A DNA stretch of 64,000 nucleotides from Aequorivita sp. (GCA_024637015.1 JAGXGE010000009.1:1-64000); one strand, 5' to 3'. Numbered from the stretch's first letter, positions 8,384 through 14,165 are shown. A program made the numbers and translations. The notes: generated by a model from the letters alone, not told the origin.

Positions 8384-8490
8384 TTGAACTAAAAAATTAA
8401 AACTATGAAATGCCCATTAACAAATTATAAACCAACCGAAGATGTATATTGGGGCATTCCATCTTCCGCTTTATCAAATATTATATAGAG

Positions 8491-9204
8491 ATGAAAACCA
8501 TAAGGATAGTATTACTCTTATTTTTAGCGCAGCTCATAACAATATCCTGCTCCAAGGACAGCTTGCAGATGGAAGACAATCCACAACAGGAAACCCAATA
8601 TTTCAACTATCCCATAGGGGAGGGACCCTTCGTATATTTTGAGGATATGGTATTTAAGGAAATACTCCTGAACAGTTTTGAAATCAATACCAATAAGGAC
8701 AATGAAATAAGTTTTGCCGAAGCCACCGCATACCAAGGTACCATAGATGTGTCCTTTAAGGATATTGAAAGCCTGACCGGTATTGAAAAGTTTGTAAATA
8801 TAATAGCATTGAACTGTGCCAATAATAAGCTAAGAACACTGGATGTAAGTAACAATCTTAGTTTGGAAAGTCTTTACTGCGGCAACAATCCCTTTTCTGA
8901 AATAGATCTTAGCCCAAATACCAAATTGACAAACCTAGATATAAGAACCACCAATCTTGCCACACTGGACCTTTCCAAAAACTCAAATCTTGTGGCCATT
9001 AGAGCAATGTGTAATTATAGTTTGAAAACAGTGAATATAAACAATAACAATAATACTAAAATCTTGATATTCTTTTTTGGGCTTGCAAACACTGCGTTGG
9101 AATGTGTGCAGGTAGATAATGTAGCATATTCAAATACTGCGACCAACTGGTTTATACCAGAAAACGCAAGATATGCATTGAATTGTTTTGACGACATACT
9201 TTAG
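8491..9204 (+). CDS. Leucine-rich-repeat lipoprotein with EF-hand-like N-terminal segment
   Basis: Start chosen at internal Met: MKTIRIVLLLFLAQLITISCSKD (lipobox TISCS); NTNKDNEISFAEA; repeats LNCANNKLRTLDVSNNLSLESLYCGNNPFSEIDLSPNTKLTNLDI. Confidence 0.8.
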   Translation: MKTIRIVLLLFLAQLITISCSKDSLQMEDNPQQETQYFNYPIGEGPFVYFEDMVFKEILLNSFEINTNKDNEISFAEATAYQGTIDVSFKDIESLTGIEKFVNIIALNCANNKLRTLDVSNNLSLESLYCGNNPFSEIDLSPNTKLTNLDIRTTNLATLDLSKNSNLVAIRAMCNYSLKTVNINNNNNTKILIFFFGLANTALECVQVDNVAYSNTATNWFIPENARYALNCFDDIL

Positions 9205-9224
9205 TTATTATTTGTATATATAAA

Positions 9225-9380
9225 ATAGCGCAGAAAGAGCGCTATCCGCAAGTGTTATTATATGTTTTATAATGTCACGCAGCTATTTTATCCCGAATTT
9301 CTTTTAACATAATTGTAGATTATAGACCTAAAGGCGCTATATCTACAATTATGTGTAAATAGCCTGAAAAAAGGCTATAC
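9225..9380. repeat. Series of three inverted repeats (hairpins)
   Basis: ATAGCGC(9225-9231)/GCGCTAT(9239-9245); acataattgtagat(9307-9320)/atctacaattatgt(9341-9354), perfect 14 bp; tagcct/aggcta around 9360-9378. Confidence 0.7.
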
Positions 9381-9592
9381 AGAAATTACTGTATATTTGG
9401 TCTATAATTTATATTATGTAAAATATAATATTTATAAACCCTCCCATTTTGGTTTGTATTAATGTCTATTCCCAACAAAGTATTTGGTTATCCTTATATA
9501 CAATAGCTATTTTGGAAACCTACCCTCTGTTGAATAATAACGAATTCACCCAATATATTGAAATCACCCACCGTAATACTCTATACCAATAA

Positions 9593-11824
9593 CTATGTCA
9601 AAAAACTAGCCTTTAAAAATTTAATAAACGGATCTTCAGGATTGTCTGTTTGCATTAGGCTTATATACGCTTTATAAGCATTGGTATGAATGGAAATCTT
9701 TTCGCGCAAACCAGCCATTGAAGCAGCTTTTGCATAATTCGCTTTAGAATTTTCAAAGTCTCCTTTATAAAGAAAAGCTTCTCCAAGTGTCGCCAATTTC
9801 CACAAACTCGCAAATGGATCTTTCTCCGTGGCTTCAAACGCTTGGTCTGCATAGATTACCATTGCTGCTTTATCTTCTTGCTGCAAGCTTAAAAACGCCA
9901 GGTTTATGGCGTGAAAATAGATTTGTGAATGGTCTTTCTTCTTTTCAGCTATTTTTAAGGCTTCCGCATAGTGTTTAAAGGCCATTTTTAAGTCTTCAGT
10001 GGCAGAGGTATTCAAGTACTGTCTTTTGTAGCGTTCACCAATAATGCCCAACAGTTTGGAATTGCCCTTAGCCATAGGGTGCTCGCTTAGAATTTTAGTT
10101 GCTTCTTCTTCCCTACCCGCACCTTCCAAAGCGTACATTAAGCGCTCCAAACCTTTGGCGTCAAGGGTGTTCAGGTTTGGCAACAGCGAATTTATTACAG
10201 CATTGTATTCCCCCAAAGCAATATTAACCTCTTCCTTATTCGAAAACGTATTGAGAAAACTCTTGTTCATCAAGGTATTTAAAAGCAGTTGGTAACTATC
10301 ATCATTAGTATCATCAATCTGCACCAATGAAAAGTGGTCTGCTTCTATAATCTCCTGATATTGCTTCTGAAATGGCTCCAAGCTTGATGTTATGGGAACG
10401 TATTCATCTTCGGTTGCAGCAATGGTTTTAAAGGTAAATGGATACTTGTTTTGAAATTTGCCATCCCAGTCATTCCTAAGCGTTCGCATATACGGACTTC
10501 CTTCTTTCAGTTCTTTTTCTTCAGTTCCGTAAGTAAAAAAGTTTTTTAGCTGTATTTCTGGCAGCCCGTTGCTTGGAGTTCCAAAAAATAGCACGTGGCT
10601 GATTCTATCTAAATCGGTTTTATCCAACTGCAAAATAGCTTGTTGCGCCACAATTCCACCCAAGTCGTGCGCAACGATGGCAATACGCTTATACTTTGAA
10701 AATTTATTTCTTATTGAAGTATTTAAAAAGTCGGAATTGCGTTTTATATCACTCGCACATGCCCAAATATTCTTCCCCAATTCAGGCACTACATTACCGC
10801 TATAACCTAACGGAAACATATCCCAGCCATCCATTTCCTCATTGTCCATCAGCAGTTTTGGCGCTTCGGAAAAGGTGTTTTCCGCATCCCCGGAAAACCC
10901 GTGTACAAATAAAATGGCGCTATTACTATTTTCAGTTTCCCTAAATTTCGTAACTGGTTCTTTTTTAACGGTTTTGGATGCTTGTGCTAAAGCTTCAATT
11001 TCATCTTCATCAGCATTCTCATCTATCAAATTTGAAACAAAACTTACCACAAAATCCTCAAATACTTGAAGATTTGCATACGGATTTTGCTCGGGATATA
11101 TTTTTGGTACTTCCTTGAATATGTATTGTACAACCTCAAATATTCGCACAAATGGATCCTCCAAATGATGTTTAGCATCTCCCCGCAAAACCTCAATCAT
11201 ACATTTGGTGAAAAGGCTATTTTCATCACCCTCCAAAACAACACTTAACTGTTCTGCGCGACAGGCAGAAACTATTGTCATACCGCGACCGTCATCCAAG
11301 TTTTGGGCAAGACCGTCTGCATTGGTGTGTTTATGTTGTAGTCCTGAAACACCTGCAGTCATTCCTGCGGCATGGCAACAGTCTAAAAAGAAAATTAATC
11401 TTCGTGATTTTAATTGCGAGATTTTATATTTTATTTCTTCAGCCTTTATCCAAGTGGTTTTGTATTTTTTTGGCTCATAATCATTTGGACACAGATGGAA
11501 GTACTTTTGATTCTCTGCCTCTGGCTTCTTTTTGGCCTCGTCCTTTATAAAGGTGTTATCACTGTACATACCGCCGTGACCCGAGTAAAAAAGAAATACA
11601 GAGGAATTTTCATCAGTTCTTTCCAATAAATCATCAAAGGCATTTAGAATGCCTTTGCGGGTTGCTTTTTTGCCTGTAAGAATTTTTAGGTTTGATTTAT
11701 AATAACTACCCGTTTCCTTATTACCTAAAATCTCGTATAACGCTTTGGCGTCATTAATTGTTTCCGGTAAATCCTCACTACCTACCCCAATTAATAGTGC
11801 GTGAGCGTTTTTAAGCTTTGCCAT
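9593..11824 (-). CDS. Caspase (peptidase C14)-alpha/beta hydrolase-TPR/TRAF-binding-like fusion protein
   Basis: Caspase motifs HALLIGVG, VFLFYSGHGG (H83), LIFFLDCCHAAG (C150); hydrolase AILFVHGFSGD, IAIVAHDLGGIVAQQ, DHFSL; C-terminal TPR-like helices. Confidence 0.85.
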   Translation of the reverse strand: MAKLKNAHALLIGVGSEDLPETINDAKALYEILGNKETGSYYKSNLKILTGKKATRKGILNAFDDLLERTDENSSVFLFYSGHGGMYSDNTFIKDEAKKKPEAENQKYFHLCPNDYEPKKYKTTWIKAEEIKYKISQLKSRRLIFFLDCCHAAGMTAGVSGLQHKHTNADGLAQNLDDGRGMTIVSACRAEQLSVVLEGDENSLFTKCMIEVLRGDAKHHLEDPFVRIFEVVQYIFKEVPKIYPEQNPYANLQVFEDFVVSFVSNLIDENADEDEIEALAQASKTVKKEPVTKFRETENSNSAILFVHGFSGDAENTFSEAPKLLMDNEEMDGWDMFPLGYSGNVVPELGKNIWACASDIKRNSDFLNTSIRNKFSKYKRIAIVAHDLGGIVAQQAILQLDKTDLDRISHVLFFGTPSNGLPEIQLKNFFTYGTEEKELKEGSPYMRTLRNDWDGKFQNKYPFTFKTIAATEDEYVPITSSLEPFQKQYQEIIEADHFSLVQIDDTNDDSYQLLLNTLMNKSFLNTFSNKEEVNIALGEYNAVINSLLPNLNTLDAKGLERLMYALEGAGREEEATKILSEHPMAKGNSKLLGIIGERYKRQYLNTSATEDLKMAFKHYAEALKIAEKKKDHSQIYFHAINLAFLSLQQEDKAAMVIYADQAFEATEKDPFASLWKLATLGEAFLYKGDFENSKANYAKAASMAGLREKISIHTNAYKAYISLMQTDNPEDPFIKFLKASFLT

Positions 11825-11863
11825 TTTTTTGAATTTATTAAAGGATTGAAGAAATTATAAAAA

Positions 11864-13831
11864 TTATTGCCAAAAGTTCATGACTTCCTCAAACTCTTTC
11901 GAATTAGTATATGATTTAAATTGGGGATCATTTTTAAAATATTTCCAATTATATAAGTGTCCGTTAGCTACTGCCTTTAGGAGGTGTTTATATAATTCAT
12001 CTTGATTATCTGTTGCTGCATAATATTGTGCAAGAGCGTAATCCACTTCCCCAAACTGATAATCAGCCCTTAAATTTTCTAAGGTGCTTAGGTTTTTTTT
12101 AGCATCGGGCATATTTCCGAGTTTGAAATTGCTAATAGCTAATTTTGCTATAACTTCAATATTGTCAGGCTCCTCGATGTGAATTTCCGTTAAAATATTC
12201 TTTGCCTTTTCATATTCTTCTTTATAAAATAAAGCGTTAGCTAGCGTGTTAGGTGTCAATGTTTCTGGCGAAGTATTTATTATATTATTGAAATATTCAT
12301 TGGCGTTCAGTGTATCGCCTTTCAACAGGTATTCTTTTCCGGCTTGGAGGTATAATTCCTGTGTCTTCGCTGGAGTTGCGATTAAATTTATTTTTCGTAG
12401 AAATTGTTTCAAGGCCTCCTCTTTTTCTGCTCTAACGTAGGCAATTACCAAAGGGCGGTTCAGTAGTTCTGCTTCGGTTTCTTGCTGGGCACCTTCAATA
12501 GTTTTTATAGTAGTACTGTATTTTTTTAATTCAATATCCGCAAAACCCTTTACATACAATCGTTGTATGCAATACGAGCAATTTTGGATGTTTAGGCTGT
12601 CCATATTTATGGTTCTGTAAATCGGCTCCACATCTTCAGGTCGGTTAACAAATTGAAGCGCTACAACCATAGCTGTTTTATTCGTTATTAAATCTAAAGG
12701 CGCTATTTCATATTCATTCAAAATTGTTTTGTAAATAGTACGGTTGTCGCCTTTTAATAATGCTTTATGCATATTCAGCAAGTTCAATTGGCGCCTATTT
12801 GTATAGGAATCAGGCTTAATTGATTTAAGTAGCGAATCCGCTTTTTTGAATTCCTTTTGATTATAATAATGGGCTACACGCAATACCTTAGGCTCAAAAT
12901 ATGTAGAATCGGCTGCGATGGCTTTATTTAAAAGATTGATGTATTCCTGATTGTCATTACTGTATTTGGCTTCCAACAAATATTTGTAGGCTTCATATTT
13001 AGGAGGGTTTTCCTGTAACATCAGTTTTTTCTTGTCTTCCGTAATGAAATAGCCGGTTATGGATTCATTAAGGTCCTCAATACATTTTAATGGGTTTTCA
13101 GCTGCACACTCCGTGGGCTTGAAGGAAATGATGGTCTTGTTTGTTTTTCCGTCTATGAGCATTCCCTGAAAAAGAAGATTTCCATTTTTAAGGTAGAAAT
13201 TTCCCGAAATAATTTTATTGGGTTTTAAATATTCCCTTACGATGGTAGTTTCGTCTTCCTCAATATTTTTTCCTTTTAAAATTGTTTTGTATTCATCTAC
13301 AAGGTCCTGGGTTATTACTTGTGCCACGTTGTTTTCAGTAATTCCATGGATTATCCAGTCGGAAGCCATTTTACTTACGATATCATATTTTGGATCACCT
13401 GTATTATTTCCGAATTTTAGTACCGCAATTTTATCGCTTTTTACAAGCTTGGGAAGATTGTCAACAGCTGCTTGGGAAAAATTTCTATTTACTATAAAAA
13501 ACACGGCAATTACACATAGTGAAGTAATTACACCCAAAGCTGAAAAGTACATTTTCTGAAAAGCATTTCTTTTCTTTTCTTCCCTCTCATCATCCTCAAT
13601 TTCTACTTTCTGTAATGGTACAATTCGAAATTTCCATAGGAAGAATATATAAAGCGGAAAACAAAGCAGCAGTACTATAATCAAGAATGCAACAGATTTT
13701 TGGGGAAGGCCCAATGGCTGCCAAGTTATGGAGAGCACCTGCAGAATAACCCACGCAGATACTACATAAATAGACAACATTTTAAAGACTTCCTTCTCGT
13801 GGCATTGTTTAAAAAAAGACTTTAGCTTCAT
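11864..13831 (-). CDS. Membrane protein with TolB/FlgO-like domain and TPR repeats
   Basis: Several N-terminal TM segments; KSDKIAVLKFGNNTGDPKYDIVSKMASDWIIHGITENNVAQVITQDLV...; long C-terminal TPR-like region. Confidence 0.65.
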   Translation of the reverse strand: MKLKSFFKQCHEKEVFKMLSIYVVSAWVILQVLSITWQPLGLPQKSVAFLIIVLLLCFPLYIFFLWKFRIVPLQKVEIEDDEREEKKRNAFQKMYFSALGVITSLCVIAVFFIVNRNFSQAAVDNLPKLVKSDKIAVLKFGNNTGDPKYDIVSKMASDWIIHGITENNVAQVITQDLVDEYKTILKGKNIEEDETTIVREYLKPNKIISGNFYLKNGNLLFQGMLIDGKTNKTIISFKPTECAAENPLKCIEDLNESITGYFITEDKKKLMLQENPPKYEAYKYLLEAKYSNDNQEYINLLNKAIAADSTYFEPKVLRVAHYYNQKEFKKADSLLKSIKPDSYTNRRQLNLLNMHKALLKGDNRTIYKTILNEYEIAPLDLITNKTAMVVALQFVNRPEDVEPIYRTINMDSLNIQNCSYCIQRLYVKGFADIELKKYSTTIKTIEGAQQETEAELLNRPLVIAYVRAEKEEALKQFLRKINLIATPAKTQELYLQAGKEYLLKGDTLNANEYFNNIINTSPETLTPNTLANALFYKEEYEKAKNILTEIHIEEPDNIEVIAKLAISNFKLGNMPDAKKNLSTLENLRADYQFGEVDYALAQYYAATDNQDELYKHLLKAVANGHLYNWKYFKNDPQFKSYTNSKEFEEVMNFWQ

Positions 13832-14136: not shown

Positions 14137-14165
14137 AATCCCTTTGAGTAAAGGGATTTTTTTTT
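14137..14165 (+). terminator. Rho-independent terminator
   Basis: AATCCCTTTgagtAAAGGGATTTTTTTT. Confidence 0.85.

Follow-up and report, generated by a model that had tools for sequence, protein, structure and literature searches.

A membrane-linked caspase and TPR-S gene pair of Aequorivita as a candidate TIR-caspase-like conflict system

In type IV Thoeris (Rousset et al. 2025, as summarised in PMC12847820), a TIR protein produces N7-cADPR, which activates a caspase-like protease. The EACC1-caspase system is a two-gene membrane system, the 3′ gene of which encodes an N-terminal caspase (Kaur et al. 2020, PMC7159879). The gene pair described here lies in a window of 64,000 nucleotides, the whole stretch of DNA that was analyzed, from Aequorivita sp. 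(GCA_024637015.1 JAGXGE010000009.1:1-64000), and likewise consists of two membrane-associated genes with an N-terminal caspase in the 3′ gene and swapped C-terminal domains. In contrast, its 5′ gene encodes a 655-aa TPR protein with three transmembrane (TM) helices and not the EACC1 protein, which has one TM helix and short extensions. Membership of the EACC1-caspase system was rejected, as the window caspase scored 66 bits against a model cutoff of 140 and the partner is not EACC1. The pair is proposed, with about even credence, to be a membrane-linked, caspase-executed conflict or programmed-death system in which TIR-caspase signalling of the type IV Thoeris kind takes a variant form.

Both ORFs are intact and lie on the minus strand, that of the membrane partner (11864..13831, 655 aa) preceding that of a 743-aa caspase, α/β-hydrolase and TPR-S protein (9593..11824), a putative effector. 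The 39-bp gap between them (11825..11863, minus strand), an operon-like spacing that the preliminary description had already given correctly, often houses a gene for a single-TM protein of 160-240 aa in other genera. Downstream of the caspase gene is a stretch with no recognizable gene (9205..9592), the position of the PGDYG-like and TIR genes in relatives, and the adjoining plus-strand gene at 8449-9204 is predicted to encode a lipoprotein that has a lipobox-like LITISCSK sequence and leucine-rich repeats (LRR_4 match). On the other side, a terminator-like hairpin (14137..14158, minus strand), of a kind equally frequent in shuffled sequences, is located between the pair and a formate/nitrite transporter gene and weakly suggests that the two genes are transcribed as a separate unit. 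Scans for the flavobacterial -7 motif and for sigma-70 promoters gave matches not above chance.

The N-terminal part of the 743-aa protein (aa 8-243; 11096..11803, minus strand) matched the Pfam model Peptidase_C14 with 71 bits against a cutoff of 21.4, which places it in peptidase family C14, and His83 of the SGHGG motif (codon 11576-11578) and Cys150 of the DCCH motif (codon 11375-11377) are both in place, as had been read from the sequence. This His/Cys dyad is invariant in the homologue alignment (73/73). The α/β-hydrolase assigned to the middle part (10265..10927, minus strand) was borne out by a match to DUF676 at aa 305-412 that barely exceeds the Pfam cutoff (22.3 versus 20.3 bits) and by an AlphaFold model (20 sequences, mean pLDDT 78), in which fold comparison likened the caspase part to the MALT1 paracaspase and GSU0716 and the middle part to lipases of the α/β-hydrolase fold. 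The earlier reading had overlooked that Asp387 (codon 10664-10666), in the sequence AHDLGG shared by the window protein and its congeners, replaces the nucleophilic Ser; the Ser of the GxSxG-like elbow of serine α/β-hydrolases is thus missing from the window protein, and a divergent genome, G002, has Gly instead. Among the 68 homologues with a residue at this position, 44 carry Ser, 11 Gly and 13 Asp, all Asp-bearing ones being Aequorivita or near kin, and in seven further rows the entire hydrolase domain is gone while caspase and TPR-S are kept (two confirmed by Pfam). Since the caspase dyad is never lost and the hydrolase Ser is replaced or its domain missing, execution likely falls to the caspase, and the hydrolase segment of the window protein probably has no catalytic function. 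Of the caspase-hydrolase effector suggested earlier, the caspase half is therefore retained and the hydrolase half, a dispensable domain, is probably to be dropped. The reverse assignment, in which the hydrolase would be the effector as a lipase or esterase and the caspase would merely process it, could draw on the homologues with an intact Ser and on the existence of stand-alone hydrolase-TPR-S proteins, but the prevalence of Asp in nearly all Aequorivita, the Gly-bearing and domain-less forms and the unbroken dyad make it very improbable. Asp387 is fixed across Aequorivita under strong purifying selection, which is odd for a decayed domain; it is possible that Asp serves as a hydrolase nucleophile with other chemistry.

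The C-terminal region matched the TPR-S (tetratricopeptide repeat sensor) model PF20308 at aa 540-645 (9890..10207, minus strand; 51.7 bits versus a cutoff of 27.6) and is therefore a TPR-S domain, after which more TPR helices follow to the C terminus. Burroughs and Aravind (J Bacteriol 2020) are reported to have put TPR-S forward as a domain that senses NAD+-derived signals. No TM segment was found in the caspase protein, which is the sole caspase and the sole TPR-S protein of the 3.2-Mb genome. In a PADLOC copy dating from 2023, it was matched only by the generic "caspase" model, and neither the partner nor the single-TM protein of relatives had a match.

The partner carries TM helices at about aa 15-33, 47-65 and 96-114, and its structural model (pLDDT 73, with low values across the TM segment) matches TPR proteins, so that the N-terminal TM helices and many TPRs noted in the preliminary description hold. 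The TolB/FlgO-like domain of that description was not recovered, with no such Pfam match in 19/19 partner orthologues; the model instead places an α/β domain at about aa 135-264, and a CadC periplasmic domain appears at rank 31 of the fold matches. Lys/Arg-rich segments of membrane proteins stay cytoplasmic according to the positive-inside rule, and the N terminus and second loop of the partner are Lys/Arg-rich; from this, an N-in/C-out topology is predicted, with the α/β domain and the TPR superhelix outside the cytoplasm. Cys242 and Cys250 are invariant (65/65) and Cys418 and Cys421 near-invariant, as expected of extracytoplasmic disulfides. The membrane TPR protein had also been considered as a scaffold for the caspase; because its TPRs are predicted to be extracytoplasmic and the caspase cytosolic, direct scaffolding would not occur. 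Elsewhere in the same genome (contig C17, L122:6641-10170), a tandem pair of proteins of ~590 aa shares a partner-like TM hairpin and a TolB-like start at 22-24% identity.

The pairing recurs widely. In a sample of 57 whole genomes of close relatives, the window's own included, the caspase (called at ≥45% identity) was found in 20, and the partner lay upstream on the same strand, adjacent or one gene off, in 20/20. A scan of genomes from 85,462 species, restricted to the best 80 matches and thus under-sampling distant forms, yielded at least 75 loci, almost all in Flavobacteriaceae, many of them from metagenome-assembled genomes and with genes called mechanically by script; among the matches listed, the partner stands beside the caspase in 63/66 loci with enough upstream DNA. 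The recurrence check proposed for the pair in the preliminary description thus came out in favor of a linked unit. The caspase gene shows dN/dS of 0.03-0.10, and, inside a clade of loci devoid of TIR that includes the window, 0.07-0.10 for pairs with dS <1, other pairs being near synonymous saturation. The pair is therefore kept not by chance, with caspase and partner under strong purifying selection even where TIR is absent. Within Aequorivita it is present in 18/28 genomes, mostly by the same TerC/formate-transporter region, and a mobile-island reading was rejected because the locus is syntenic at this fixed chromosomal site. Viral contigs contained no relative of the locus, and plasmids no full-length match.

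Most relatives carry a longer operon, in which the commonest gene order is the three-TM TPR partner, the single-TM protein (160-240 aa), the caspase-hydrolase-TPR-S protein, a PGDYG-like protein of ~75 aa and a protein with a TIR domain, a TM helix and a variable tail. Among the matches listed, the single-TM gene occurs in 31/66 loci, the PGDYG-like gene in 47/65 and a TIR gene downstream of the caspase on the same strand in 45/65, the remaining loci including some with TIR genes of another type on the opposite strand; two or more TIRs are present in 9/65. The PGDYG-like protein scored 26.4 bits against PF14083, just below the curated cutoff of 27.0. The operon TIRs score ~100 bits against TIR_2, resemble the TIRs of short Argonaute, Thoeris and SAVED systems and retain the motif bearing the presumed catalytic Glu in 54/57 cases. 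The background of TIR_2 is roughly one to two genes per 3-Mb genome, which gives a rough chance of well under 1% for a TIR in any given 4 kb. In the TIR protein, the N-terminal TIR is followed by one TM helix and a tail such as Fib_succ_major; the post-TM tails vary, with Fib_succ_major and SH3-like-looking ends (e.g., L060:5156-6529 and L064:11961-12974), and this variation suggests variable sensing outside the cell. The two-gene system of the preliminary description is therefore not one by origin and is better seen as the remnant of a four- to five-gene operon that usually includes TIR.

The window clade (seven rows, 99% support) is devoid of TIR, and the tree is most simply read as a single loss. 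No TIR_2 protein is present anywhere in the window's genome, and a compensating TIR of this type elsewhere was thus ruled out. In the empty 3′ flank (9205..9592), no PGDYG or TIR remnant was found, nor is it a repeated element or present as a second genome copy; a deletion scar or repeat element was accordingly rejected. Conversely, PGDYG and TIR genes occupy the same TerC site without partner and caspase in three congeners, G008 (L115), G020 (L114) and G026 (L116). At L120 (G021), only PGDYG is retained. The occurrence of the pair without TIR and of PGDYG and TIR without the pair makes the modules separable, and this speaks most strongly against a single obligatory pathway. It would suit an arrangement of two self-sufficient modules, partner plus caspase and PGDYG plus TIR, that merely share a preferred site, the more so as the former also lacks the TIR in a Maribacter/Robiginitalea clade. 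Such an arrangement is nevertheless rather improbable, because many genera preserve the linkage and gene order despite differing flanks, and TPR-S proteins are again found next to unrelated TIRs.

A resident protease switch for envelope stress or the life cycle, in which the periplasm-sensing TPR partner would trigger proteolysis by the caspase and TIR would be an optional modulator, is a serious alternative, given that the locus keeps one chromosomal position across Aequorivita and that no close relatives turned up among viruses or plasmids. The strong purifying selection without TIR and the extracytoplasmic topology predicted for the partner would also agree with it. It is held to be unlikely on balance, in view of frequent lineage loss, the pair being absent from 10/28 congeners, and of the TIR, nSTAND1, SLATT and patatin genes found repeatedly nearby.

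This genomic company, which consists of known conflict genes, includes an nSTAND1 NTPase and a different TIR, tail to tail beside the operon in L154, L175, L183 and L184 (nSTAND1 318 bits in L183), the four loci of the Maribacter/Robiginitalea clade without the downstream TIR. An apparent cluster of 15 STAND loci was reduced to these four by direct search, and single-linkage clustering of the flanks was uninformative because clusters merged. Further neighbors are SLATT_1 proteins and a patatin matching CBASS phospholipase effectors; in L164:10775-13154, a CBASS-effector-like patatin and a 417-aa peptidoglycan-binding-domain protein directly follow the PGDYG gene and replace TIR, and in L162:10530-16937, the operon is met tail to tail by a metacaspase gene and an adjacent gene for an 1859-aa hydrolase-CHAT-TPR-S protein. 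The earlier conflict-system reading gains from these surroundings, while its two-gene form does not survive. In other families of the phylum (L108:7756-12407 and L111:3625-11012), the same hydrolase-TPR-S module (about 270-290 bits) is likewise found beside a TIR gene (and nSTAND1); in contrast to the present locus, these clusters have no caspase, their hydrolase Ser nucleophile is intact and they encode a further TPR-S protein whose head is deoxyribosyltransferase-like. This sister protein matched MAP3K_TRAF_bd in Pfam (152.9 bits) and MAP3K5/ASK1 structures, and for this reason the "TRAF-binding-like" label first given to the C-terminal region of the caspase protein was a good call. The recurrence of different TIRs beside TPR-S proteins was counted in favor of a pathway from TIR to TPR-S.

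In the favored explanation, a conflict or death system executed by the caspase, the extracytoplasmic TPR partner, together with the tailed TIR protein in most relatives, would detect an envelope signal such as damage or an attacking phage. An NAD+-derived messenger could then be made by the cytosolic TIR domain and would be bound by the C-terminal TPR-S of the caspase protein, and the released caspase may cleave cellular proteins and lead to arrest or death. This division between sensing at the envelope and execution in the cytosol is suggested by the predicted topology of the partner and TIR proteins and by the TM-free caspase. The hydrolase-fold segment of Aequorivita may act as a structural or regulatory spacer. 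In the window clade, where TIR and PGDYG appear to have been lost, the caspase is presumably triggered via the membrane partner or by a messenger of other origin. The missing TIR_2 in the window's genome, the separable modules, the fixed site, the lack of viral relatives and of full-length plasmid matches, and the lack of PADLOC matches to the partner and the single-TM protein were counted against this explanation. More tentatively, with the odds leaning against it, the operons may constitute an undescribed family of immune operons for envelope surveillance in Flavobacteriaceae, in which TPR-S would be a receptor of TIR-made NAD+ messengers that directly gates the caspase, and TIR-free descendants would have been rewired to membrane sensing alone; the kinship of TPR-S, as a prokaryotic domain, to the regulatory repeats of ASK1 is an equally tentative part of that reading. 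If the favored explanation is right, a membrane-sensing branch would join bacterial TIR-caspase immunity, the locus would provide a test case for TPR-S reading TIR-made NAD+ messengers, the point of contact with the ASK1 signalosome of animals, and the natural TIR-free and hydrolase-free variants would help to tell apart what sensor, messenger and protease each contribute.

Among other known systems, the VMAP/MoxR-vWA ternary system was rejected as a candidate because the full operon consists of partner, single-TM, caspase, PGDYG and TIR genes, with no MoxR or vWA genes. The paracaspases and metacaspases (MALT1, GSU0716 and orthocaspases) share the fold and the His/Cys dyad with the window caspase and differ in domain architecture and operon context. 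With type IV Thoeris, the likeness lies in a caspase-like protease encoded in one operon with TIR, here in most relatives, and in its presumed gating by a messenger. In contrast, the TIR gene found in 45/65 related loci is missing from the window, the TIR of relatives has a membrane anchor, membrane TPR, single-TM and PGDYG-like proteins come in addition, and the caspase is fused to a hydrolase and TPR-S, the two proteases being likened by description and not by sequence. Because the window is without TIR and the protease likeness is one of description only, the locus is not to be filed under type IV Thoeris; the best-supported placement is that of a system that would work like TIR-caspase signalling.
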